A DNA stretch of 64,000 nt from Liolophura sinensis (Eukaryota > Mollusca > Polyplacophora > Chitonida > Chitonidae), in NCBI RefSeq assembly GCF_032854445.1, contig NC_088301.1, forward strand, positions 25,838,402 through 25,902,401, in the 5' to 3' direction. Positions within the stretch are counted from its first letter, which is position 1, and each line of letters begins with the position of its first letter. The notes beneath the pieces are model-generated. The model saw only the letters and a program-made list of their open reading frames with translations. It searched no databases and was not told the DNA's origin. The position numbers and the translations under genes are program-made. Shown here one piece after another: positions 3,861-63,908 of this stretch.

Positions 3861-5754
3861 ACAACACATGTGTCTATATCCTTCCAGAACTGGGAATGCA
3901 CAGTGTTATGACCAAAACATACACAAATCTAGTCTAGCAATTTACAAACTTTGCCACCAAAACGCATATTCCTGTTTTTAGCCTTCACAAAAGATATACC
4001 TCTGCAGAGCTTAATACAATAATTTTGCAACCAAAGCATGAAGGGCCTCAGTTGTAAACAGTTTTCCAATCAAAATATATATATATATATCAGGCAAACA
4101 CTGTACTTAGCATAAAAATTTACCTAAAGAAGTGCATAAATAAATAAACATAGATATCCTACCTTTTAAAAAAAACCCACCTTTCTTAAATAAACAGAAG
4201 TCTTAGTCAAAATCATAAACTTGGTCATGGACAAAATACAGCATCTTCCCTTACTGAGCTTGAAACACGGTACCCTATTGCCTTGTCCAGCAGAACATAC
4301 CCATAGTGTCAATGCTCTACATATCCTTTTACTACCATGTTCATTGCCTTCAAACTCTAATCTAACATCTCTTATCTCCGAAACCTTTCTCACAATGTTG
4401 ACAGTGCTGGAATGGAGGAAGTATCGGAGTACACAACAGATAGAGAACGGTGATTCGCCACAAATGTCCAATAAAAACAAAGGTGACCAAACCATTATGG
4501 GCTTGCTGGCCCATGGGCACTTCTGTGGGGATTGTCCTTTACTAAGATGAAGCCATCAGGAAGTGTTGCTTCCATTGGACAGCCCCTGGCCAAACCATTT
4601 TATTAGTAAGGCTCTCTCTAAAGCTGTAAAGGTCAGCTGCAGCTAGCGACTGGTATTCCACCTTTACTAATGTCACTCTAACCAATTCGCCAGTCAAAAT
4701 ACTAATTGAAGGCAAACCTTTTGCAAACACTGAGTTTTCCTGAAGAATTAACTGCTTTGCAACAAGTGACTGCATTAAACCCAGATCTGGGGTTAAACAA
4801 AGCAATTTATCCTGACATACACACACACACACACACACACTTTCCCCATCATAATTAATAGAGACCAAAAAAAAAATCACCTGTTCACCGCCAGAATTTC
4901 AGCATCAATCACTTGCCTTGTTCTTCTTTCGTTATGACCTACAGTCTCACAAAACACTCTCCGTCCTTCATCCCCGTTTGCCAGGCACTACTACTCTTGC
5001 AAATTTTTAAGCTTATTGATCAACCCCTCTACATGTTATCACACCGTCAAGCCGTCATGAATATCTTGCACCTCCGGTTCCCTCCCGCAAATTTATTCAT
5101 AGAAGCCGTTCTTAAGTCACAATAACTAGTCTGCTTATTCCTGACTGAACTGCCAATGTTTGTCAGGTCATAAAACGAAAATCAATGTCAAAGTGAGTCA
5201 TGAGGAGTGTCATTTCCTGCTGGTATAAAAATTGTCCCCATCAGTGGACATATGAGCCAGAGAATGGTACAAAAAACAAAAAGCCATGTGATTAGCTAAT
5301 TAGTTTGAAGACAGGATTACCTATTTCTTCTCATTCATAGAAAATCTCTTTCTCCATTTCAAACATCAAAAGGAATGTAGCATTAATTAAGAACGAAGAG
5401 AAAGTTAATGAAAATTAATTAATCAGAAGACAGGAGTCTACCTGGACTATACTGAGGCAAAGGCTGAAATAGAACCATGAAATCATGTAGGTACCAACCG
5501 TGAACTGAATGTTCATGTAGCTGATTTCCTTTCAATATCTCACTTGTGTCAAATCTCACTGTGATTTTTGTACTTTTATTTTTTTTTAAAGCCCTACTTT
5601 TACTGAAATGGACCAGACCGAAAGCAATGACGACGTGTGTTTCCTATACATGATGTCAAGGTGTGCTTTCAAAAGTCTGAAAAAACTTCGACGACAATGT
5701 GTAGCTGGAGCTATTTCGAAGGAGTTAATTTGGGGCCCATGTATTTTTTAATAC
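3861..5754. other. No gene recognised
   Basis: AT-rich sequence with short (AT)n and (AC)n runs; open frames here are short and without splice or family support. Confidence 0.4.
4818..4841. repeat. (AC)n microsatellite
   Basis: About 12 dinucleotide units. Confidence 0.9.
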
Positions 5755-6858
5755 ATTATTCACCTGGTAGCTGCTACTGTACTGTATCCGTGACACACAG
5801 TTATCCCCATGCAGTATGCCTGTTGTTAGCTAGCAGCATGTCACTGAACACTATTCACCTGGTAAATACTACTGTACTGTATCTGTGGCACACAGTAATC
5901 CCCACGCAGTATGCCTGTTGTTAGCTAGCAGCATGTCACTGAACACTATTCACCTGGTAGATACTACTGTACTGTATCTGTGGCACACAGTAATCTCCAT
6001 GCAGTATGCCTGTTGTTAGCTAGCAGCATGTCACTAAACACTATTCACCTGGTAGCTACTACTGTACTGTATCCGTGACACACAGTAATCCCCATGCAGT
6101 ATGCCTGTTGTTAGCTAGCAGCATGTCACTAAACACTATTCACCTGGTAGCTACTACTGTACTGTATCCGTGACACACAGTAATCCCCATGCAGTATGCC
6201 TGTTGTTAGCTAGCAGCATGTCACTGAACACTATTCACCTGGTAGGTACTACTGTACTGTATCCGTGACACACAGTAATCCCCATGCAGTATGCCTGTTC
6301 TTAGCTAGCAGCATGTTACTAAACACTATTCACCTAGTAGCTACTACTGTACTGTATCCGTGACACACAGTAATCCCCACGCAGTATGCCTGATGTTAGC
6401 TAGCAGCATGTCACTGAACACTATTCACCTGGTAGGTACTACTGTACTGTATCCGTGACACACAGTAATCCCCATGCAGTATGCCTGTTCTTAGCTAGCA
6501 GCATGTTACTAAACACTATTCACCTAGTAGCTACTACTGTACTGTATCCGTGACACACAGCAATCCCCATGCAGTATGCCTGTTGTTAGCTAGCAGCATG
6601 TCACTAAACACTATTCACCTGGTAGCTACTACTGTACTGTATCCGTGACACACAGTAATGCCCATGCAGTATGCCTGTTGTTAGCTAGCAGCATGTTACT
6701 AAACACTATTCACCTGGTAGCTACTACTGTACTGTATCCGTGGCACACAGTAATCCCCATGCAGTATGCCTGTTGTTAGCTAGCAGCATGTTACTAAACA
6801 CTATTCACCTGGTAGCTACTACTGTACTGTATCCGTGGCACACAGTAATCCCCATGCA
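5755..6858. repeat. 95-bp satellite, 12 units
   Basis: CACCT anchors fall every 95 bp exactly, from 5761 to 6806, with few substitutions. Consensus includes GGTAGCTACTACTGTACTGT and GTTGTTAGCTAGCAGCATGT. Two adjacent variants (GGTAGGTACT plus TTCTTAGC, then CCTAGTAG) occur as a 190-bp block repeated at 6236 and 6426. Confidence 0.95.
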
Positions 6859-9167
6859 GAGAACAGCAGGCATTGTACAGCTAAGCAAAGGGACACAGGA
6901 AGATATTTACAGCTATCTACTCCTCCGCTATCTTTTTACATCAATCTTCATTGTCATCAATATATGTCAACAGGGAAGTTTTTCAAATGCCCAGAAAAAA
7001 AAATTCCATACAATCCACCTGAATGAAGATAATCAGCTTTGTCCATGCTAGAAACATACATATTTCCTACAAACAAACCTACATGGGGACATACATTATT
7101 ACAAGTAGGTGCCGGCAGCCTGAACAAATAAAAAGAAAATATTTAGTACAGGTTTTCCCGCCAAATGATTATAATAATAAATGATTATAACAATAAATGA
7201 TTATAATAATAAATGATTATAATAATAAATGATTATAATAATAATCATCTTTGTCTACACAATCATTAACTTATATCCCACAACTCATACCTGGGGCTTT
7301 TTGATGATAACCGAAGATGAGTGGTTGCTTTCAGCTACAACCATCGATTAATAAGAGGACATAAACTGGTGGTTTGCACCCTCAACCATTAACAAGTTAC
7401 TATTCAACATACATATCCACATAATAGCCTTTATACCAATGTCCAGCTTATGATGATCAAATTATTTAACTTTCACTTTTTAAGTTAGAAATGTATTGCA
7501 TTAGTTTCACCTAAAGATCAGCTTTTCTGAAGTGAAACAGTTTTCTTGATTCTGATTTTGATTCATCCACATTATAAAGAACCGCTTAAGATTTGTGAAG
7601 TATGATTAATTTCTTATGATAAAAACAACTTAGTGTTGGCATCAAAAGTATCATTTTAAGACCCTCGCGTGATTCTGAAGGTGCATATTTACAGGCTTAA
7701 ACTTAAGGTGAAATAAAGTATGTACTGTAAATCTTCTAATTTTCAGGAGAGATATCAGGCGTGATGAAAGCAAAAAATTGCCTTTTTGTCCAAAAAAACA
7801 GTAAAGCTATGCATATGTTGTTCATTAGATTGTCTGATCATGTGAGAAAAGAAAAGCTGTGTATTCCTGTTGCAATTACCCTAAATGACATAAAAATCTG
7901 ACCACAAAAGAGCAAATAAATGAAGATATTATTTCTGGAGCTAAAATTTACATTTTCCCAGTAGGATATCATCCTACCTTCCAAACACCCCTCAAAGAAC
8001 CTTTCTAAATTCAACAGAACTCCCAGAATCTGGAAAAAGGAGCAACTTAGTCATGGACAAATTTTTAGGTTATTTAGGTAGGTAGATATTATTCATTAGA
8101 TGGCCTAACCATATGAAAAAAGAGAACAATTACATACATACTGGCTAAAACAAGCAGACCAAACATCCTAAAAATTAGAAGAATTACAGTACTCCAGCTA
8201 CAACCCACATCACTGGGGCTTGATAGGTCTTGTGGTTTCTTCCCAGCAGCATCTGGTGTCTGTCCAACATCAGACTTATGGAAATATCAACCAAGTCTAT
8301 TAGCCTTATCAAGGACACTTCAGTCTAGTTATCAGCCTCCTTTAGACGGCATGGTCAGCTGCCATGTGATTAAGTCTGCATGCATATCCATACTCAAGTG
8401 GCTGGGCGCAAGATAATTAGTCCAGTCAGCATCTGATGCATGTATGCAGAAATGGTGCGGACAAGCTTACATACTACGGCAATTCTTCAACCTTTTCGCA
8501 TGTTGGCAAGGTGTTTATTCAAACGGATCCCGAAGGCATTATTCTGTGTTTACAAAATAAAATTGTACTTATTGTGAAGCCATGGATCTGGCCAATCCAA
8601 AAACTGATGTAATCTTGTTTCCAAAATCAAACTAAAAATGTGCATAAATTGCACGAAAAGATGCTCTGTCATATTTAAAAAGGAATTAGGGAAGCTCGGT
8701 AACCTGATCACAAACTGGTGATGGGAGGTGCAAGAAAGATGTCAAACAATACAAAATGGTCAATGTTCAGCGTGACTTTAAAAAAGCTAAAAAGGGCGCC
8801 ATCAATGACAAATCCGTTTGCCTTTTTTAATGGAATACATTGTCCACTATGTGTTCATGCACATCAACATGAACACGCTGCATTCAGATAAATATTTGCC
8901 CGATAGCGCCATTTGGCGGGAATTCCTTCTTCTTCTATGACACCTCACATTTCCTGTATAACTCAGTGGATTCCAGGTCATACACATTTGCGGATATCAT
9001 GGAGCTGAATTTAGCAGAATGACAGTGTATTCCCGCAGCTGCTGACACACCAAATAGCCACACATACAGAATCAAATCAAATGTCTCAATTCACATATGT
9101 ATGTGGATTGAATGCAAAATGAATGGAAGCAAATCGTTCACAGAAACTTATGCCAGCAACATGCGGA
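6859..9167. other. No gene recognised
   Basis: Contains a dispersed segment (about 7510-7740) that recurs in diverged form at 12590-12810 (TTAGTGTTG.CATCA...GTATCATTTTAA). Otherwise featureless. Confidence 0.4.
7164..7244. repeat. 16-bp AT-rich minisatellite
   Basis: Five copies of ATGATTATAATAATAA. Confidence 0.9.
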
Positions 9168-9741: not shown

Positions 9742-9826
9742 CTTTCCAGGAATAGCTGTGATTAATGGCAAGGTACAGCTACAGACAGGGATTAATACAA
9801 CATAGTCCCAGGTATAGATGAGCACA
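9742..9826 (-). CDS. Exon-like segment at the left end of the 125-bp array
   Basis: 85 nt open in one frame (VLIYTWDYVVLIPVCSC then TLPLITAIPGK) between ATGCAG and GTAAGC. Its acceptor, first bases (TGTGCTCAT) and the downstream intron resemble array units. It needs phase 2 on entry, which does not match the exon at 12150-12191, so it may be a divergent array unit rather than a true exon. Confidence 0.2.
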
Positions 9827-9827
9827 C

Positions 9828-12110
9828 TGCATGAAACAAAGTGTTAATTACTGTCAGTTCTTTCTACCATATCGATTCCGTCACTATCTCTCCCTCATTT
9901 ACCTCTCAAGTAATCAATATAGTAAATGACAATTTAACAGCACATGAAAACACTGCATAAAAAAAGTGTTAATTACTTTCAGTTCTTTCTACCATATCGA
10001 TTCCGTCACTATCTCTCCCTCATTTACCTCTCAAGTAATCAATATAGTAAATGACAATTTAACAGTACATGAGAACACTGCATAAAAAAAGTGTTAATTA
10101 CTGTCAGTTCTTTCTACCTTATCATTGCCATCACTACCTCTCCTTCATTTACCTCTCAAGTAATCATTACAGTAAATGACAATTTAACAGTACATGAGAA
10201 CACTGCATAAAAAAAGTGTTAATTACTTTCAGTTCTTTCTACCATATCGATGCCATCACTACCTCTCCTTCATTTACCTTTCAAGTAATCATTACAGTAA
10301 ATGACAATTTAACAGTACATGAGAACAACAAATGAGAAAAAGTGTTAATTACTGTCAGAACTGTCTACCATATCCATGCCATCACTACCTCTCCTTCATT
10401 TACCTCTCAAGTAATCATTACAGTAAATGACAATTTACCAGTGCATGAGAACACTGCATATAAAAAGTGTTAATTACTTTCAGTTCTTTCTACCATATCC
10501 ATGCCATCACTACCTCTCCTTCATTTACCTCTCAAGTAATCATTACAGTAAATGACAATTTACCAGTGCATGAGAACACTGCATAAAAAAAGTGTTAATT
10601 ACTTTCAGTTCTTTCTACCATATCCATGCCATCACTACCTCTCCTTCATTTACCTCTCAAGTAATCATTACAGTAAATGACAATTTACCAGTGCACGAGA
10701 ACACTGCATATAAAAAGCACTAATTACTTTCAGTTCTTTCTACCATATCCATGCCATCACTACCTCTCCTTCATTTACCTTTCAAGTAATCATTACAGTA
10801 AATGACAATTTACCAGTGCATGAGAACACTGCATAAAAAAAGTGTTAATTACTTTCAGTACTGTCTACCATATCGATGCCATCACTACCTCTCGCTCATT
10901 TACCTTTCAAGTAATCATTATAGTAAATGACAATTTAACAGTACATGAGAACAACAAATGAGAAAAAGTGTTAATTACTTTCAGTTCTTTCTACCATATC
11001 GATGCCATCACTACCTCTCGCTCATTTACCTCTCAAGTAATCATTACAGTAAATGACAATTTACCAGTGCATGAGAACACTGCATAAAAAAAGTGTTAAT
11101 TACTTTCAGTACTGTCTACCATATCGATGCCATCACTACCTCTCGCTCATTTACCTCTCAAGTAATCATTATAGTAAATGACAATTTAACAGTACATGAG
11201 AACAACAAATGAGAAAAAGTGTTAATTACTTTCAGTTCTTTCTACCATATCGATGCCATCACTACCTCTCGCTCATTTACCTCTCAAGTAATCATTACAG
11301 TAAATGACAATTTACCAGTGCATGAGAACACTGCATAAAAAAAGTGTTAATTACTTTCAGTACTGTCTACCATATCGATGCCATCACTACCTCTCGCTCA
11401 TTTACCTTTCAAGTAATCATTATAGTAAATGACAATTTAACAGTACATGAGAACAACAAATGAGAAAAAGTGTTAATTACTGTCAGTACTGTCTACCATA
11501 TCGATGCCATCACTACCTCTCCCTCATTTACCTCTCAAGTAATCATTACAGTAAATGACAATTTAACAGTACATGAGAACACTGCATAAAAAAAGGGTTA
11601 ATTACTGTCAGTAATGTCTACCATATCCATGCCATCACTATCTCTCCTTCATTTACCTCTCAAGTAATCATTACAGTAAATGACAATTTACCAGTGCACG
11701 AGAACACTGCATATAAAAAGCGCTAATTACTTTCAGTTCTTTCTACCATATCCATGCCATCACTACCTCTCCTTCATTTACCTTTCAAGTAATCATTACA
11801 GTAAATGACAATTTACCAGTGCATGAGAACACTGCATATAAAAAGTGTTAATTACTGTCAGTTCTTTCTACCATATCGATGCCATCACTACCTCTCCCTC
11901 ATTTACCTCTCAAGTAATCATTACAGTAAATGACAATTTAACAGTACATGAGGACACCAAATGAGCAAAAGTGTTAATTACTGTTGGCACTTTCTACCAT
12001 ATTGATGCCATCACTACCTCACCCCCATTTACCTCTCAACTAATCATGACAGTTAATGATAATATAACGTTAGATGGTGTCACTGCATGAGACAAAACAT
12101 TACGTAATGC
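9828..12110. repeat. 125-bp tandem array, 18 units, each with splice-like borders on the minus strand
   Basis: Anchors GTGTTAATTACT recur every 125-126 bp from 9841 to 11971. On the minus strand a typical unit reads CACTTTTTTTATGCAG (acceptor-like), 50 nt, then TTGAGAG|GTAAATGAG (donor-like). Five units have lost the acceptor AG (variant AACAACAAATGAG). Two variants alternate as a 251-bp dimer at 10842, 11093 and 11344. The unit resembles the exon and flanks at 12085-12215. Confidence 0.9.
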
Positions 12111-12149
12111 TAGAGCATTAAATCGTATCGATTCCATCTACCCAGTTAC

Positions 12150-12191
12150 CTCTTCTGCAATCAATGCAATGGCAAAGGTACCTGTGGATTC
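12150..12191 (-). CDS. Possible FANCD2-like exon, founder of the 125-bp array
   Basis: 42 nt, phase 0 in and out, ESTGTFAIALIAEE, between CATCAACCAG and GTAACT. It continues the phase of the exon at 12319-12507. Its 3' half, donor and following intron (ATGG.ATCGATA) are recognisable in every unit of the neighbouring array. Confidence 0.35.
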
Positions 12192-12318
12192 CTGGTTGAT
12201 GTTTGATGAGCAGTAAGTGCTAATGTCAGTAAATGGTCGTCCTTGACACCTACATGTACACTAATAATTACCTGGCAGGCCTACATTTAATTAACTGCTC
12301 TTCATCCAGGCGACTTAC

Positions 12319-12507
12319 CGCTGACATCAAACAATAAACAACCTGACAGATGCTCTGGATGTAGACAATCAGCTGTGCAGCTGGAGACAATCCATCTGTT
12401 TGGAATGACTGCGCTTTACCATCGCTTTTCACTGTATTAATAAGTCTCCTTGTAGCCACAATGCCAATGTCCATGTACTTAAAGCGCTGCCTCACTGGAA
12501 TGCCAAG
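12319..12507 (-). CDS. Possible FANCD2-like exon
   Basis: 189 nt open segment bounded by acceptor GTGTCTCCAG and donor GTAAGT, phase 0 in and out (63 codons). LGIPVRQRFKYMDIGIVATR and later LSPAAQLIVYIQSICQVV. The pattern F-K-Y-x-x-I-G-I then an L-S-x-x-Q helix resembles the middle of FANCD2 (interstrand crosslink repair) as I remember it. The identification is weak, no other part of such a gene is visible nearby, and it may belong to another helical-repeat protein or be a gene fragment. Confidence 0.4.
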
Positions 12508-13227
12508 CTGGAGACACCAGATAGGACATCGTACCATGTCACAACATACTGTTCCATATTTCTACTTGCTGTATTTCATCTACAGTTTAGTCTTTTTCAG
12601 GTGAAACATTTCGCTTGAACATGACTTATTCATCCACCTTATATGGTCACACTTTTTTTTAAAGATTCATTCATTTCACTAATTTTTTAGTGTTGACATC
12701 AGAGGTATCATTTTAAAGCCTTTCTGTGCTTCTTACTGTTGCTTCTGAAAAATTCTCTGAGAAAGTGCATTTTTTTACAAACTCAACTCACAGACCATAA
12801 ATTAAGCTTTATTTTAGCCAAATATGGGTCAAAAACTGATCCGCATGTCTGAAAACACTTTTCACATCTTCAAGTCATTTATGCGTATGGGAAATAAGCA
12901 GAAATAACAGGTACTTGCACATGTCTCATGGTGAGTTCCAAGCAAGCAAAATGCACAGATAGCTAAAGTCTTATAGGCATATGACCTGGTTTTGAACTAC
13001 CTCTAATGACACGAGGGACAAAAAGGGAATACTGAGTACATGTTCAGTGGGTGGTTGATTAAGATGCTCCGTACAGTATGCAAGAGCTACCTAATAATGT
13101 GCTTTTCATCTAACCATTTACCTTTTGCATAAAAGAACGACGAATACATGTTGATGCATATGTATGTACATTCAGCCTGACAAAATCAATAATGTACAGA
13201 ATGTACTTAGTGAGATGTCTACTGACT

Positions 13228-25400: not shown

Positions 25401-28400
25401 AAAAACGACGTTGTTTACAATGGCAAAGCAATAATGAATCTTACACATCCCTAAGGCAAGCAGACGGTAATTACACAATGGCTATGCCCTCGTACAGTGA
25501 TCTCTGCAAAACTGACATGCACCATTTTGTTTTGCCAATTATCACTATGGGGTAGCATCTGACAATAATTGGATACCGACGTGGGAAGTCCGAAGTGGGA
25601 CAAATTACATCATTTCAGTGATGCTGGACATTCCACTGCAGCGTCAACAGAGCGATGTCACAATGAGTAGACTAAATATGTCACACATGAAACCGCCAAA
25701 CGCAACACGTTTTGCATCAGGCAACAAAAGACTTGTGACATGCCAGTCCTTCGCCACACCAGCACCACCTGTTGTGAGAGGATACCCCATTGTAATTATA
25801 ATATATTTGCGGCCGTTAAGCAGCTATCAGGCTGCTGATTACTGACATCAGGGTGAATAAAAAGTAAAACATTCAAAGAAATCTGATTCTTGTAGCATTC
25901 ACATTTAAAAAGAACATTAGAGGATCAAAACAAAGCCAATGAACGAACCCTCATACTGAGTCTCAGACAGAAGCGGTTGTGACGGAGGTCTGCCGAGAAT
26001 AACATCACTTGACAGAACAGGTTCCACGCATTGACATTGTCAAACTCCTGAAAGAAGAAATGTGAGATATGTAATTCACATTATCAAACTTCTACAAACA
26101 GAAATAGGAGATGTGTAATTCACATTATCAAACTTCTACAAACAGAAATGGGAGATATGTAATTCACATTATCAAACTTCCACAAACAGAAATGGGAGAT
26201 ATGTAATTCACATTATCAAACTTCTAAAAACAGAAATGGGAGATATGTAATTCACGCTATCAAACTTCTACAAACAGAAATGGGAGATAGGTAATTCACG
26301 TTATCAAACTTCTAAAAACAGAAATGGGAGATATGTAATTCACATTATCAAACTTCCACAAACAGAAATGGGAGATATGTAATTCACATTATCAAACTTC
26401 TAAAAACAGAAATGGGAGATATGTAATTCACGCTATCAAACTTCTACAAACAGAAATGGGAGATATGTAATTCACATTATCAAACTTCTAAAAACAGAAA
26501 TGGGAGATATGTAATTCAAATTATCAAACTTCTAAAAACAGAAATGGGAAATATGTAATTCACATTATCAAACTTCTACAAACAGAAATGGGAGATATGT
26601 AATTCACATTATCAAACTTCCACAAACAGAAATGGGAGATATGTAATTCACATTATCAAACTTCTAAAAACAGAAATGGGAGATATGTAATTCACGCTAT
26701 CAAACTTCCACAAACAGAAATGGGAGATTTGTGATTCACATTATCAAACTTCTAAAAACAGAAATGGGAGATGTGTAATTCACGTTATCAAACTTCGGAA
26801 AACAGAAATGGGAGATAGGTAATTCAAATTATCAAACTTCTAAAAACAGAAATGGGAGATTTGTGATTCACATTATCAAACTTCTAAAAACAGAAATGGG
26901 AGATGTGTAATTCACGTTATCAAACTTCGGAAAACAGAAATGGGAGATATGTAATTCAAATTATCAAACTTCTAAAAACAGAAATGGGAGATTTGTGATT
27001 CACATTATCAAACTTCTAAAAACAGAAATGGGAGATATGTAATTCATGTTATCAAACTTCTGAAAACCAAAATGGGAGATATGTAATTCACATTAATTCA
27101 TAAAACTGAGATGTGGTTAAATATTCTGTCTGCATTGAATGTCAAGCATAGTTTTGCTAGGCAGAATAGCTTCAACACAGAAATAATGACCTTTACATAT
27201 TTTTAAACTAATGAAGAAAGAAATGCATGATTCATACTTTTTTTTCAAACAGTAAAAACTAAAAATGGAAACCACCCCACTTTCATCAAATACCTGGAAA
27301 ATCTGACTTGTTGATAGTAAATGTCATCTCTGCTAGGCAGAATAACTTCATCACAGAAATAATGACCTTTGCATATTTTTAAACTAATGAAGAAAGAAAT
27401 GCATGACTCATACTTTATTTTCATACAGTAAAAACTAAAAATGGAAACCAACCCACTTTCATCAAATACCTGGAAAATCTGACCTGGTGATAGTAAATGT
27501 CATCTTTGTCAGACATTTTCATGAAAAAAGTTAAATAAACAGTATTATCATTAATAGGGATTACACTTTCTGAATATAGCATAGATTCTAGTGCTGAAAT
27601 TTGGCTGAGACCACTGCAGGTTTCGAACCAGCGACCTCAGAGTAAGGCAACAAATCGCCAGCAATATATGTCAACCGTCTAGACCACTCGACCAACAGGC
27701 CTTCCACAAAAATAGAAGGTAGCTGACCAGTAGACTTTACAGCAAACATGCATTACCCCTCTGATGATCACAAATGACGTCACTCCCTTAGGTGAATATA
27801 AAATTCAGGCCAGTCACTGCAACCTGTACATCATAACACAACCCGGAATTTTACCGAAGATTTCTTACCCTCAAACAGATTTCCTTGACAAATCTGTAGG
27901 CAAACTGTCCGTTCTTGTTCATCATAAATGCCAATACACACATATCTTCAGTTTCCTGCAGAATCAGAAAGAGATTAGAAAGATCATTTCTTTCATTTAT
28001 TTTCCTGGTGTTTACACCAAACTTAAGCTATTTTTTTGCTGCATACATGAAGAGACAGAATTATCAACAATGGGTGGAGGAAACAGATCAATGCCTGGAG
28101 AAACCAGAACACGATAAATTATTTGTATCTAAATGTTAATCTTCTTATAAATTTATTTATTTATTTATTTGATTGGTGTGTTACGCCGTACTTAAGAATA
28201 TTTCACTAATATGACGGCGGCCAGCATTATGGTGGGTGAAAACCGAGCAGAGCCCACGACCATCTGCAGGTTACTGGAAGACGGCTGGAGAGGAAGCCAG
28301 TATGAGTTGTACTTAAACTCACAGCGACTACATTGGTGAGAGACTCCTGGGCCATTACGCTGCGCTAGCGCGTTAACCAACTGAGCCAAGGAGGCCCCTC

Positions 28401-34400: not shown

Positions 34401-37400
34401 ACATTAGAACTTATTTATAACACACCAAAGACATTCAGTCCAATATCAACTTTCAATTAAAGACTATTTAATTACAATTGTGATGGTTCTGCTTAAAATC
34501 GGATAGCTATTGCACTTCTGGTAAAGTTATATCCCATTGTCTTCTTGTCTGATGTTATATTAGTCAAAAGCTGAAGAAAAAATTATTTCTGCATGACCTT
34601 GCAAAATTTTTACTGCAAATTTGTTTTCATACTTCAGAAATCCAAACTTTTATGAATACTATATCCCTTTTTTTTCTCAAAAGTAAAGGCTTCAGAACTG
34701 ATCAAATTCTTTACTTAAATTCAAGAAAATAATATGTAAAGATTGGAGGCTACAAAAATATCTGGGATGACACTGGGGGGATTTACCTGTGGTGAGGGTG
34801 CGTATTGCCTCATCAGCTCTACCCATCTGCTGCTGAAGGTTAGACAAGGCTACACGAGCCTCGGTGTGATTGGGGGCCAGCTCAACCACCTTAGCATAGG
34901 CCTCTTCTGACCGATCTACCTCGCCCAGGATGCTAAGACACTCCGCATAGCGCAGCCACACTGCAGCCTACCACAAAGCAGAGTAAAGGATATATGAAAA
35001 GGTATTATAAAATCAAGCCTCTAACGGCAACGAGGAAAGATATGTCAATAAAATTTGGAAAAAAATCTTCATTTTTGAGATATATTATATATTCTTTAAT
35101 AACCCTTCTATTTTATACACATTCTCCATCAAGGGTAGGATATATTTGCAAATGATGTCACAGAGTAACATACTAAGAATTGCACCCCCATTCAGGCTTT
35201 CCTCCCAACAAAAATGTTTTGACAGCTATCACAGAAGGTCACTTAATTTCCGGCATCATCGCTGGGGCCAACCACTGGGGAAACTGTTGTTCAAAGCCAT
35301 TTCCATGCCCCATGAAGAAAGCCAAGAAACTGTTGTGTATTTGTATAGGTTAGGCCACTTCATACACTCCCTATTCAAAAATATCAAACTAAGCTTTTCA
35401 TGTATACTTTAATAGAAACAATAATTTTAATTGAAAACAACTGCTACAGCCTCATTTATTTATTTTATTTGATTGGTGTTTTAAGCAGTACTCAAGAATA
35501 TTTCACTTATACAATGGCGGCCAGCATTATGGTGGGAGGCAACCGGGGGAAACCCATGGCCATCCATAGGTTGCTGGTAAACCTTCCCACATACGGAGAG
35601 GAAGCCAGCATGTGCTGGACCTTGCTGAACTCACACCGACCGCATTGGTGAGAGGCTCCAGGGTCACTGTGTTAACCATCTCAGTCTGGAAGAGATGGCT
35701 TTAGGTCAGGAGATCTGTCAGGTACCTTAGTGGCACATCTCCCAGTGGTTTCCTCCACTATCGATTGCTATCAACAATTTCAGCCATCTGATAAATAATG
35801 CTCACTTCCTGACAAAGCCCACAAATTTTTACATGAAATTTCAAGACTTTAATTACAACCCCCTCCCCCTCCCTTCCCCTTGTAAGCTCCTCCCCAGCCA
35901 TCACAGACTCGAAGAGCCTTGTAAAGTTGTCTGTCATCTCCGCTGGATGCAGTTTTGTGATACAGTGCTTACCAGGGAGTAGTTCTTGGTTTTGACAAGC
36001 ATCTCCAGGATGGGCCTGGCGTCTTTGTATCGACCCAGGTGCATGTAAGCCTCAGCTACATCCAGATACAGGTCACCACTAGACTCGGCAGATTCCTCCT
36101 GGAGGGGCGAGCGCACATACTGCAAAATACACACACTGGTACAGTAAAATACACACACAGTATCCCAGTATCAGCTAGTACAAAAATACGCACAATATTA
36201 CTGTAAGATGTACTGCAAATTGCACACGCAGAATTATGGTACAGTAACAGGTATTGCCAAATACTGTGAAACTTCATTTTTCAACCACCAATGCACTTTT
36301 TTAAGTGGAAATTTATGCGTACAATTATTATGTAAATTATGCCCAAACTGATTTCTGTGTGTCGTTAAAGGTGTTAGCTTCTTAAAACTGTGCAAAGTAT
36401 TTGCTCCACACTCTCTCAGAATGTTTCTAAATATTGGTTGCAGAGGCGGTTGAAAAGATTGAAGAATTAGGGTACACATACAATATCTTGGTAACAGGTA
36501 CTGCCGGATACACATACAATATCTTGGTAACAGGTACTGCCGGATACACATACAATATCTACACATACAATATCTTGGTAACAGGTACTGCCGGATACAC
36601 ATACAATATCTTGGTAACAGGTACTGCCGGATACACATACAATATCTACACATACAATATCTTGGTAACAGGTACTGCCGGATACACATACAATATCTTG
36701 GTAACAGGTATTGCCGGATACACATACAATATCTTGGTAACAGGTACTGCCGGATACACATACAATATCTTGGTAACAGGTACTGCCGGATACACATACA
36801 ATATCTTGGTAACAGGTGCTGCCGGATACACATACAATATCTTGGTAACAGGTACTGCCGGATACACATCCAATATCTTGGTAACAGGTACTGCCGGATA
36901 CACATACAATATCTTGGTAACAGGTGCTGCCGGATACACATACAATATCGTGGTAACAGGTACTGCCAAATACGCACACACATAGTATCACCCTAACAGG
37001 TGCTGCAAAATACATGCCAAATTCTGCCAAACACTATCACTGCACAAGGTACCATAATATACACACTGAGTTTTTCTACAGGCTGTGCACTGATAATTAC
37101 ATTTATGTATGATTTCTTACTTTCAGACATTTTTCATTCGCTCCGCATGTGTTTTACACAATTCTGGGGGACAATCTAGCATACCTATGTATTTATGTAC
37201 ATCCATTCTCAAAAGAAATATCCAACCAGTAATAGCAAACACAACTGAATAGTTGTATGTCCATGTAAACATTACAAAATTTGTCTAACTCCCACAGCTC
37301 AAGGTGTATCACACAGGCCACCTAGCTTCACCCCCAAGGCTATAGGTAACCACCAGCTTTACCCTCAAGTCTATTGGTTACCATTAACTTCCACACCAGT

Positions 37401-49845: not shown

Positions 49846-52444
49846 GTAATGATACATTGTATACTGGTAACATATATAAATAATTTTAATTATCGACTGA
49901 TGCCGGATGGTATCTAGAAAATTCCCTGTCCAAGGCCAGGGTTAGACCAGCATCTTGCATCCTAGCAATTGAAAGGCGATCACAAATAGCCAAATCCCAG
50001 TACCCTTGGTGGAGTAAGAGTGAGTTAGTACTTGGGGGTTTAACGTTGCACTTAACTGTTATCAGTCATGATACGGGTCAGCCAGTCGTTGCACTATCAC
50101 CTTAATGCTAATTAAACACCAAGAAAGGAAGTTACAACTTTTAAGGTCTTAAGTGTGACCAGACCCAGGATAGTCCCTGGATCTACCGCCCCCGAAGCGG
50201 ACACTCTACCAACAGAGCCATCGGGGCCAGTCAGGTAGACTAAGAGAGGATTATGAGGAGATCAGTTGCACAAGCCTCTGACTGATACAGTCGTTGTGAG
50301 TTCAAGTCCAGGCCATGCTGACTTACTCTTCGGTCCTATGTGAGAAGGTCCACCAGCAACCGCAGATGACCGTGAATTTTCCTGGGCTGTGCCTGGTTTT
50401 CTCCCACTATAATGCTGGTCGACGTCAGATAAGGGAAATATTCTTGAGCGAAGCAAAAAACAGCAATCAAAACAATATATAAATCACTTGTTATTGAAAC
50501 AATGTTTTTAATTTGTACTAAGGCTTTTTTTTTCCAACAAAAAAAAAAGGTCATTGGAAAGGTTGAAAATACTGTATATGTTTTATAGATCTAGACAGAG
50601 CCAATATCAACCTCTAGATCTAACTTCATTAGTGAGTTTAAGAATCGACTGTCGATTTTTATAGTCGGTCGGGAAGCAAGATAAAAATAGCTCAATTACA
50701 TGTGGGTGTGGTATTTCACACATTAAACATGCAGCTGTCAAAAAGTGCAGGAGTTAAATGACATGAAGTTTTGTTGATGGAGTACCTTGAACATCCATGG
50801 TGGATTGGCTGCAGCTTTAAGACAGGAAGTTTGGTTGGTAACCGGCATTAGGGTTGGTTTTCTGGGCACTGAAGTTTCCATAAAACCAAATGTGGTTATA
50901 CGAGTGAATACAATGTTAAGACACAAATCAAATACATAAATGAATAAATAAATAATCATCGCTGACATTGTGTGAGCCTTGGTGACAATAAGCAGTTGAT
51001 GGCATTTGTGTAGCTTTTTTGCACAGTGTTTGTTCCACCATGAATATGGTGGGCAAGTCTTTACATCACGCATTGAAAAGATCTTTGTTTACTCGCAAAA
51101 TGTTGTTGGTTTATGCCAGACATACCACCCATATAACTGACAGCCATTGTACAGGTTAAAAATTTAATGGCAATTTAAAGGACACATGAATCACTTGGTT
51201 TTTATTGCATAAGCCAGAGTATACGATGTGGCCTAACATACAGCTGTACATAAAAGCCTCTCAGCTTTTTCTTGGAGCCTGAAAATGACTTTAAGATACA
51301 GTTTTCCTAACCCCCAGGAGACAGTCTGGAAATTAAATAGCTGTCAATGGTAATAGCTGTCAAATGACATCGCTGGGGTGAGAGCCCGAACTGGGGACAC
51401 TAAGCTGATCCAACATTCCCAGGATGTTCATGGAGAATGTTGTTTCCTATTGTTTCCAACCAATGATGGAAAAATGCATAAAATAGAGGGGTTATTAAGA
51501 AATATGAAATATGCCTCAAATATGAAATTTTGTTTTTAAATTTTTTTTGGCAGATCTTTCTTCATTTTCCTCAAAACCATGCTCCTTGTTTTGTAGTACT
51601 TTTTCATTTATCAATGAAATAAATGAGCAAAGAATATTCATTCAGGAATGGTAATTGTGCAGTGAAAGGGATTAGATTATACGTGCAGATAGCAGTAAAT
51701 TCTGTCTAATTTTTTGCAGGACGGCTTTCGGAGAAGAGAACCTGTTTTCTGACAATTCTTTACGCCAGTCCAGACTTCATTGACAACCGCAGACTGAGAC
51801 AGGACAGGCGGTTATATTTTAGCTACTTCCGTATTAAGCTAAATACCCCACTGATAGATCCAAGGAGTTTGTTATACAAGAAAATCTGGCTGGAGGAAGA
51901 ACTGGTGCATGTTGGAAACACGTCCTTCATCATAAACTCCTTATTAAAAAGCCCTGACCGACGAAACACATTGGCCATTGCTAAATCTTTGTCCGTCATA
52001 GTGGACAAGGAGACACACAAGAAAAGGCAGCTGCCCTCGTGGTTTAAAGAAAAGTTTGGCCACATTAAACAAGAGCCTGTAAAGTTTGAGATACCAGAAG
52101 TGCCGCGGCACTGGAACTGCAAGGTCAAGATTTCCCACAATGATATCGACCTGAATAAGCATGCTAACTTCTCAGCCTATATCAGCTACTGCCAGGATGC
52201 TGTGTATAAACATCAGGTACAGCAGTCGAATTTATCATGGTTTAACAGACTTGGTGTAGAAGAGGTTGAGCAGAGTTATCTGGGTGAGGCCATGGAGGGT
52301 GAGGAACTAAGCCTGTATGTACAGCAGACGTCTAGCCCAGGGGCCGTCTTCCTTGTTAGTGTGGAGAAAGACGGGGTGATTATTGTTAAGACCAGATTAG
52401 TATATACATCTGCTTTATCACCTGGTCTTACTTCACAGCTGTAA
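49755..52444 (+). CDS. Double-hotdog acyl-ACP-thioesterase-like protein, 2 exons
   Basis: Exon 1 is 49755-49845 and exon 2 is 51720-52444, joined in phase 1 (donor GTAATG, acceptor TTTTTTGCAG), giving 816 nt or 271 aa. The C-terminal half contains KVKISHNDIDLNKHANFSAY followed by ISYCQDA, the 4HBT/FAT-type signature (D-x-D-x-N-x-H-x-N-x-x-Y) in which Asp and His/Asn act in thioester hydrolysis. The N-terminal half (YSYSHLDKNGRLSEKRTCFL onward) fits a first hotdog repeat, as in acyl-ACP thioesterases of PF01643 type, though more divergent. Expected reaction: release of a fatty acid from a thioester carrier; compartment unknown, and no clear targeting peptide is seen. The start ATG has A at -3 and G at +4. 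A 5' noncoding exon is possible (AG at 49748-49749). Confidence 0.75.
50019..50231 (-). mobile_element. SINE family B copy, internally deleted
   Basis: Both ends are kept; about 150 bp of the middle is missing. Confidence 0.7.
50263..50485 (+). mobile_element. RUDI/V-SINE-like element, diverged
   Basis: Plus orientation in the thioesterase intron, directly behind an opposite-facing second-family SINE. Confidence 0.7.
51720..52444 (+). CDS. Thioesterase-like gene exon 2
   Basis: 725 nt terminal exon from acceptor TTTTTTGCAG to TAA. GRLSEKRTCFLTILYASPDF to the C-terminal LSPGLTSQL; contains the hotdog signature in its second half. Confidence 0.85.
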
Positions 52445-62000: not shown

Positions 62001-63908
62001 ACTAATGTATTCGCTAGTGATGAATGCAAATTCATTTGCATATTTTTCTTACCTCTTTATCATCAAAGTTACAACAGGGGATCAGTTTGAACGGATCATA
62101 TCTATCCAGTCTTGAGGACTTTGATGATGACTGGGTTGACTGATCAAGGGCAGTGTGCTGCAAAGATAATACATTTATTTACTCGATACATGTAGTTGTT
62201 TACTGCTGCACTCAACATCTTCTCCTCATATGATTCAAGCCAGTTTTATGGGTGGAGGAAATCGCAGTGCCCAGTTCTGACCATTGCTGAGCTATCCCAA
62301 ATTATCCCACTGTCACTGCTGACAGGCAAGTGGTGTGAAATTAACTTCGTGCAAGGCCTCACAAATGAGCACTGTCAACCTCTTATTGCCACCAAGGTTA
62401 TGAGAAACTGCAGAACCCCCTGTATGAGCAACCAGGCCCAGAGCTCTGTATTTACTTCAACAAAAAAGACATTCATGAAAAGTTGGAAGATGTTATTACA
62501 CCTGACATTTCCAACCAGGACAAATTCTCTTTTCACTCTTCACCTAATCAGAGACGCTTGAATTAAGGGTGACCCCTCATGACCATACAACTGAAGTGCA
62601 TATTGTATATCGATCTGATGGTAGACAGACAGAATAAGAATTGAGGCATTTTCATTGATAATATTAAAGCATACAATCAAATGGAATACTAAGTTACACA
62701 TATAAAAGTAAGCAAGAGAAACTAAAATCAATAGCATTTAGAATGTGTCTAGAACTGGACCACTTCTCTACTTCGCTGTCTGGTATTACTTACATCTATT
62801 GTTTTTCCTTCAGCATCTTTCTCATCTACCCAAAAGCCAAATGGGTCTCGAATCTTCCGCTTTCTTGGACGCTGTAACAAACAGAGCCCCCAGAATGTAT
62901 GACTGTTAATACCCAAAAGTTAGCACGTATATTTTGTGGAAGTTTGAGAGCGCCTCACGAACTTGTTATAGCTATGAACTTCTTCATACAATTCAATTAA
63001 ATTCAGTTACAAGTATTTCTTCACAATCTGTCGGTGTGTCAAGGGCTAACTTGATATTTCCTCAACAAAGATGTGCTTGATTGATATTTTACGCTTAAAA
63101 ATTACCCGCTTCTAATTACTAATGAGCCAGCCAACCTCATTAGTCCAGGGCCTGATACATGTAGTCATTGCAAGTAAGCACTTTGACAACCTGGAGCCAA
63201 CCAACCTCATTAGTCAAGGGCCTGATACATGCAGTCAGCACAAGTCAGCACTTTAACCACCTGGAGCCAGCTAACCTCACTAGTCAAGGGCCTGATATAT
63301 GTGGTCATTGCAAGTCAGCACTTTGACCACCTGGGGCCAGCTAACCTCATTAGTCAAGCGCCTGATACATGCAGTCAGCACAAGTCAGCACTTTGACCAC
63401 CTGGAGCCAGCCAACCTCATTAGTCAAGGGCCTGATACATGCAGTCAGCACAAGTCAGCACTTTGACCACCTTGAGCCAACCAATCTCATTAGTCAAGGG
63501 CCTGATACATGCAGTCAGCACAAGTCAGCACTTTGACCACCTTGAGCCAACCAATCTCATTAGTCAAGGGCCTGATACATGTAGTCACCACAAGTCAGCA
63601 CTTTGGCCACCTTGAGCCAACCAATCTCATTAGTCAAGGGCCTGATACATGTAGTCACCACAAGTCAGCGCTTTGGCCACCTGGAGCCAACCAAGTCACA
63701 CACTGACATCAACACACATACACTGTGTGATCTCGATTGACATGATCAATTGTAGCCAACTGATAACATCATCTTACAGTTTAGTGACAAAACAAAAGAA
63801 TAAATTGTGCCATACCATGGCTTCCATCTTCTCCACACTCAAAGACAACTTGTCCTCCACAGACCTCTCTTTGGTAATACCCGACTTCAAAGGACGATTG
63901 TAGCAGGC
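55862..63908 (-). CDS. MYSM1: MYSM1-like JAMM/MPN+ histone H2A deubiquitinase, C-terminal part (8 exons)
   Basis: Eight minus-strand exons join in phase to 1,053 nt (350 aa plus stop); the 5' part lies beyond the right edge. The MPN+ domain carries the full JAMM set: Glu in [10 protein letters not shown], then [17 protein letters not shown] (H-x-H-x10-D with the Ser), so the zinc protease should be active. [11 protein letters not shown] and DPFKLIPC match MYSM1 more closely than its relative MPND. MYSM1 removes ubiquitin from histone H2A in chromatin. The N-terminal SANT and SWIRM domains are not in the window. Introns hold a 70-bp array, SINEs and a TTAA-flanked element. The 3' end converges on the thioesterase gene. 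Confidence 0.9.
56682..56791 (-). mobile_element. RUDI/V-SINE-like element, 3' end only
   Basis: Tail and core in a MYSM1 intron. Confidence 0.75.
57267..57430 (-). CDS. MYSM1: MYSM1 internal exon g
   Basis: 164 nt, phase 1 in and 0 out. [20 protein letters not shown] then [20 protein letters not shown], corresponding to the YKFEVQQ region of MYSM1. Confidence 0.88.
57541..58114. mobile_element. TTAA-flanked MITE-like element
   Basis: AGGAGAACAAAACTTAAA at the left end and the inverted AGGAGAAGAAAATTTAAA at the right end differ at two positions; both sit directly inside TTAA. A TTAA target is typical of piggyBac-type transposition. No transposase frame is present. MYSM1 intron, next to exon g. 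Confidence 0.6.
58466..58695. mobile_element. Dispersed MITE-like repeat E, copy 3
   Basis: Same order as copies 1 and 2: CAACCACTAAAGCATTTCTT, AAGATGCAAGCTTCATAAAA, then TGGTTGCCAAGGC and GATGAATTAGGCTACTTG. Confidence 0.55.
58827..58959 (-). CDS. MYSM1: MYSM1 internal exon f
   Basis: 133 nt, phase 0 in and 1 out. [20 protein letters not shown] then the strand region [18 protein letters not shown]. Confidence 0.9.
59349..59518 (-). mobile_element. SINE type C copy
   Basis: Minus strand GTGGTTGAGCGATTAAGAAA (box A-like) and AGAGTTCAATCCC (box B-like); TTCCTTGTCCAAGGTTGGGA in the body. Confidence 0.55.
60102..60229 (-). CDS. MYSM1: MYSM1 internal exon e (JAMM motif)
   Basis: 128 nt, phase 1 in and 0 out. 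[17 protein letters not shown] then [20 protein letters not shown]: both zinc His, the Ser and the zinc Asp are present. Confidence 0.93.
60283..60546 (-). mobile_element. SINE with RUDI-like tail and family B-like body
   Basis: Begins TTTGATTGGTGTTTAACGTC and continues with TGCTGCTTCACT and TTTTAAAGTT landmarks of family B; a diverged or chimeric copy. Confidence 0.5.
60842..61022 (-). CDS. MYSM1: MYSM1 internal exon d (start of MPN+ domain)
   Basis: 181 nt, phase 0 in and 1 out. [20 protein letters not shown] then [17 protein letters not shown], with the catalytic Glu of the MPN fold, ending [10 protein letters not shown]. Confidence 0.93.
61745..61899 (+). mobile_element. RUDI/V-SINE-like element, 3' half
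   Basis: Very close to the consensus, plus orientation, in a MYSM1 intron; probably a young copy. Confidence 0.8.
62053..62157 (-). CDS. MYSM1: MYSM1 internal exon c
   Basis: 105 nt, phase 0 in and out. [20 protein letters not shown] then [15 protein letters not shown]. Confidence 0.88.
62794..62871 (-). CDS. MYSM1: MYSM1 internal exon b
   Basis: 78 nt, phase 0 in and out. [20 protein letters not shown] then EGKTID, a basic stretch that precedes the MPN domain in MYSM1. Donor GTAAGT. Confidence 0.85.
63122..63695. repeat. 70-bp array in a MYSM1 intron
   Basis: Eight to nine units with CTGGAG-like anchors every 70 bp (63191, 63261, 63331 ... 63681); consensus includes CCAACCTCATTAGTCAAGGG and CACAAGTCAGCACTTTGACC. 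Ends about 120 bp from the donor of exon a. Confidence 0.92.
63816..63908 (-). CDS. MYSM1: MYSM1 internal exon a
   Basis: 93 nt, phase 0 in and out, [20 protein letters not shown] then [11 protein letters not shown]. Acceptor GAGCAG chosen; an alternative AG lies 5 nt upstream. Donor GTATGG. Confidence 0.65.

Follow-up and report, generated by a model that had tools for sequence, protein, structure and literature searches.

The tandem array at positions 9818-12068 of the 64,000-nucleotide stretch of Liolophura sinensis DNA analysed here (the window) is best read as a passive minisatellite confined to a single locus, a reading we hold with high confidence, and we infer that the array has no function. 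An initial annotation had described 18 exon-like cassettes and had listed a passive minisatellite among its readings. That listing holds up, because the array occupies a single locus, contains near-identical dimers and does not favour its splice-like sites; the cassette description stands only in part, as the tandem array is real but acceptor and donor are both present in just 13 of 18 cassettes (17 complete units and a 5' unit, 12082-12033). Unequal exchange or slippage would have enlarged and homogenised such a minisatellite, single units and 251-bp dimers both being duplicated. Its unit would by coincidence hold TTAAC, which resembles a branch point, ATGCAG with its T tract, and the donor-like GGTAAATGA; repetition would then display one modest coincidence many times, simply because the unit is repeated. 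The array shows how a repeated unit turns one such coincidence into a striking pattern, and it matters little otherwise.

TRF reported a sole array at this place, with a period of 125, 18.0 copies and 91% matches, and its tandemness is certainly beyond chance. Cutting at the constant TAATTA yielded 17 complete units on the minus strand, from 11980 down to 9851, of which 12 measure 125 nt and 5 measure 126 nt, with pairwise identities of 86-100%. The copies lie head to tail, and their period of 125 places them among minisatellites, whose units measure tens of bases or more. Read along the minus strand, the unit consists of TAATTAAC, a T tract, ATGCAG, 50 nt, GAGAG or GAAAG, and GTAAATGA, with about 75 nt separating GTAAATGA from the AG position of the next unit. 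When the 609-Mb genome (632 contigs) was searched, the whole array matched itself alone, and a 42-nt unit pattern allowing up to three mismatches gave 17 matches, all 17 inside this array. The principal parts of the array are as follows:

9851 to 11980, minus strand: array core of 17 complete units, from TRF and cutting at TAATTA.
11354 to 11479, minus strand: example of an acceptor-less 126-nt unit, in which CATTTG replaces ATGCAG.
11980-11855, 11228-11103, 10977-10852 and 10351-10226, minus strand: further acceptor-less 126-nt units.
10852 to 11479, minus strand: apparently recent amplification of a 251-bp dimer, with unit identities of 99-100%.

The splice-like signals are unevenly distributed among the complete units. 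ATGCAG occurs in 12 of 17, so the claim of an acceptor in nearly every unit was too strong; the five remaining units (starts 11980, 11479, 11228, 10977 and 10351) have CATTTG in its place. The donor claim fares better in its general form, with the donor-like GGTAAATGA present in 17/17 units, than in its exact form, GAGAGGTAAATGAG being found in only 7/17. TTAAC is present in 15 of the 17, and the diverged 5' unit has an additional donor-like site at 12033. Under an approximate splice matrix, bit scores run from 5.7 to 9.6 for the 12 acceptors and from 7.7 to 7.9 for the donors. Every one of the 17 50-nt segments has a stop in each frame, as had been noted; in A+T-rich DNA this is likely to be expected often by chance.

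Comparison between units indicates that these sites are not preferentially conserved, which argues against a splicing role. An alignment of the 17 complete units has 126 columns, 33 of them variable. Within the acceptor stretch the figure is 9 of 17 columns versus 24 of 109 elsewhere (Fisher 0.014, overstated since the columns are linked), within the donor 1 of 9 versus 32 of 117 elsewhere (Fisher 0.44), and for the splice columns pooled 10 of 26 versus 23 of 100 elsewhere (Fisher 0.134). The linkage among acceptor columns is evident from their shared partition: five columns set apart the same units (0, 4, 6, 8 and 13), and the G of AG, as a further column, sets apart four of them, which points to a few events spread through amplification. 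Of 126 seventeen-column windows, 12 show as much variation as the acceptor (maximum 10 variable columns), and of 126 nine-column windows, 47 show as little as the donor. A run of 16 constant nt, the longest, lies within the 50-nt segment and away from the splice sites; the donor's AGGTAAATGA, at 10 nt, ranks third in length. The initial annotation had proposed comparing AG and GT with the rest of the unit: the AG, missing from 5 of 17 units, is as variable as the remainder, whereas the GT, kept in 17/17, is constant, as are many other positions.

The same array bears marks of block duplication and homogenisation of the kind found within minisatellites. Identity is 99-100% among units 4, 6 and 8 (starts 11479, 11228 and 10977) and 100% between units 5 and 7 (11353 and 11102), and it reaches a maximum of 1.000 at lags of two and four units. 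These near-identities point to a duplication, probably recent, of a 251-bp dimer that includes an acceptor-less unit. With its tandem units of tens of bases or more, single locus, homogenised core, decayed 5' edge and near-identical dimers, the array resembles intronic and intergenic minisatellites (VNTRs); it differs from them in that its unit bears a splice-like pair.

How unusual that pair is was assessed against random 125-bp pieces drawn from the remainder of the window. Circularised and scored on both strands, 176 of 3000 such pieces equalled or exceeded the acceptor-plus-donor sum of the unit, and 45 of 3000 had a best pair with an acceptor of at least 8.0 and a donor of at least 7.6. 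Among 22 arrays with a period of 30 or more in the window and the FANCD2 region (this array itself counted), it ranks first in exon-likeness, at 15.7 against 14.9 for the runner-up. A 200-kb sample, composed of 20 evenly spaced stretches from two contigs, contained 24 tandem arrays with a period of 30 or more, one of which scored higher. The exon-likeness of the unit is therefore weakly unusual, slightly beyond chance. That arrays are common in this genome, as the 24 in the 200 kb sampled attest, we count in favour of an ordinary minisatellite.

Beyond the core, the initial annotation had noted that the units resemble a small exon with its flanks, and this resemblance is borne out. Extension of the unit in register, outward from 12063 to 12189, scores 24.5, a value that 0 of 100 dinucleotide shuffles reach (maximum 8.5), and local alignment of the 5' edge to the unit scores 26.0, a value matched by none of 1000 shuffles (maximum 25.0). 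Stricter local scoring missed the 5' edge likeness, 60/300 and 71/300 shuffles being as good for two flank cuts. On the opposite side, the stretch past 9818 is not significantly similar to the unit by anchored extension (27/100 shuffles as good), and local tests against the unit (33/1000) and against the small-exon region (74/1000) are weak. The edges comprise:

12064 to 12189, minus strand: diverged unit at the 5' edge that keeps the register of the array, acceptor-like at 12082 and donor-like at 12150.
12150 to 12191, minus strand: the 'small exon' of 42 nt, open in one frame (ESTGTFAIALIAEE), with a donor of 7.7 bits and an acceptor of 0.9 bits.
9742 to 9826, minus strand: possible 3' edge unit with an insertion, acceptor-like at 6.4 bits and donor-like (GTAAGC) at 11.1 bits.

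Very probably, judging from these alignments, 12150-12191 is homologous to the array unit, and its donor aligns to the unit donor. What this homology means bears on an alternative in which the minisatellite arose from a functional small exon (12150-12191) and its flanks, followed by decay of the copies; this alternative partly coincides with the passive minisatellite, the origin of the unit being the sole difference. The segment has an open frame whose codon score ranks above the 95th but below the 99th percentile of stop-free segments, it and its flank are homologous to the unit in register, and a candidate exon upstream ends in a 10.2-bit donor. Ten further segments elsewhere in the window satisfy the same loose standard, 2 on the plus and 8 on the minus strand. 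Against seeding, a decayed edge unit yields the same homology, and the acceptor of the segment amounts to just 0.9 bits. Because of that acceptor, 12150-12191 is most simply read as part of a decayed edge copy of the unit rather than as its parent exon. We thus consider the exon-seeded origin unlikely: of the minisatellite seeded by an exon that had been proposed, the passive minisatellite stands, but the seeding is unproven, given the weak parent acceptor and the lack of any gene identified around it.

The search for a host gene centred on the minus strand upstream of the array, where two further features lie:

12319 to 12493, minus strand: possible upstream coding exon, open, with a donor of 10.2 bits and an acceptor of 4.2 bits.
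12569 to 12733, no strand assigned: dispersed repeat beside the array (upstream in the minus-strand sense), with at least 43 other genome matches at 70-86% identity, a lower bound from scoring 40 of 267 candidates.

The codon score of the candidate exon 12493-12319 ranks above the 90th but below the 95th percentile of stop-free segments, the score having been trained on 1112 codons from 20 of 22 FANCD2 matches and two window segments. This candidate matched neither Pfam nor PDB, and 12150-12191 likewise had no Pfam match, which further disfavours seeding by an exon. Other nearby minus-strand frames gave no PDB match, and in Pfam only hits no better than chance (E 0.75 and 0.066). FANCD2, considered as a lead for the host gene, failed; a FANCD2 gene sits on another contig. 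No host gene emerged from these searches, which leaves an intronic position of the array hypothetical. A phage collection returned no match.

The passive minisatellite has next to be weighed against readings that give the array a part in splicing. If the array lay in an intron, its cassettes might compete for the spliceosome, inclusion of one leading to a stop and decay, such that copy number would tune the output of the host. Stops in all frames of all 17 segments are what poison exons would have, 13 of 18 cassettes offer both sites, TTAAC recurs in most units, and the array tops the 22 compared in exon-likeness. Against this, five of 17 complete units are without an acceptor, units of that kind occur among the near-identical duplicates, the acceptor block ranks with the most variable parts, and the search for a host gene found none. 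Poison exons or splice decoys are therefore improbable here; from the earlier suggestion of such an array the stops survive, while its function is unsupported. A more specific version, in which the 13 complete cassettes are real pseudo-exons and gain or loss of units resets the poisoning of a host transcript as a copy-number splicing rheostat, we regard as very improbable. If junction reads existed, the array would offer a natural series for the number of weak competing exons that an intron can tolerate, and a case for how a minisatellite can alter splicing.

A comparable locus is VNTR6-1 in intron 6 of TERT, a tandem repeat reported, with experimental support, to shift splicing via an expandable G-quadruplex (PMC11830802). 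The two share a tandem array able in principle to alter splicing by copy number; they differ in that the array here is known from sequence alone and the fold of its unit pair is not special. Mutually exclusive exons, to which the units had also been likened, fit badly, as all 17 segments have stops in every frame, so that the units share no open frame, and their 50 nt is not a multiple of 3. The Dscam-type arrays described in PMC6071210 likewise comprise serial exon-like segments with flanks, and the present array departs from them in having no open frame, a segment length that is not a multiple of 3 and no clear docking complementarity. An ungapped antisense search for complementarity of the docking type in flanks of about 1 kb found none that was clear: 2 of 40 shuffles were as good upstream, a marginal result, and 20 of 40 were as good downstream. 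The unremarkable fold of one 251-nt unit pair also counts against mutually exclusive exons.

The least probable reading, which we give very little credence, takes the array for a putative enhancer or a sink for DNA-binding proteins, built from TAATTA and ATGATTA, which we presume to be homeodomain-like sites. TAATTA occurs at 7.93 per kb in the array versus 0.49 per kb in the rest of the window, ATGATTA at 7.05 versus 0.28 per kb, and TAATTA is invariant in 17/17 units, partly a consequence of cutting the units there; yet any short word of a repeated unit attains such enrichment. Two further candidates were rejected. A transposon-borne array is, as judged from the array itself and its upstream flank, at odds with the presence of the array sequence at one genomic place, outside the dispersed repeat 12569-12733. 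For a structured RNA, the fold of one 251-nt unit pair was unremarkable (z -1.23), and Rfam had no family at gathering score in the window.

Elsewhere, the window is rich in minisatellites, with further sizeable arrays at 5753-6859, 26030-27095, 36473-36967 and 63124-63694 (units of about 95, 44, 36 and 70 nt). A translatable dispersed repeat starts at approximately 210, 1048, 3670, 14455, 17006 and 19281 on the plus strand and 9252 on the minus strand; these seven places all lie within the first 23 kb, and the repeat recurs in the FANCD2 region of another contig. Several protein-coding candidates are also present. A 148-codon open frame on the minus strand (1743-2186) matches the Pfam family ISK_Channel (KCNE) with E 4.4e-5, above the curated cut-off, and has coding-like codon use; a 244-codon open frame on the plus strand (51710-52441) matches the thioesterase-like family 4HBT_2 with E 5e-8. 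A TPR frame lies above the Pfam cut-off and a JAB match under it (16.6 of 22.5 bits). Together with the FANCD2 gene on another contig, the KCNE-type, TPR and JAB matches give the genome an animal-like gene content. In the FANCD2 region (C11:26358000-26361300), a long stretch is open in several frames with repeats such as SRNAVGQQEC; it seems to form a further, short-unit tandem array, and falls outside the set of scored arrays with a period of 30 or more.
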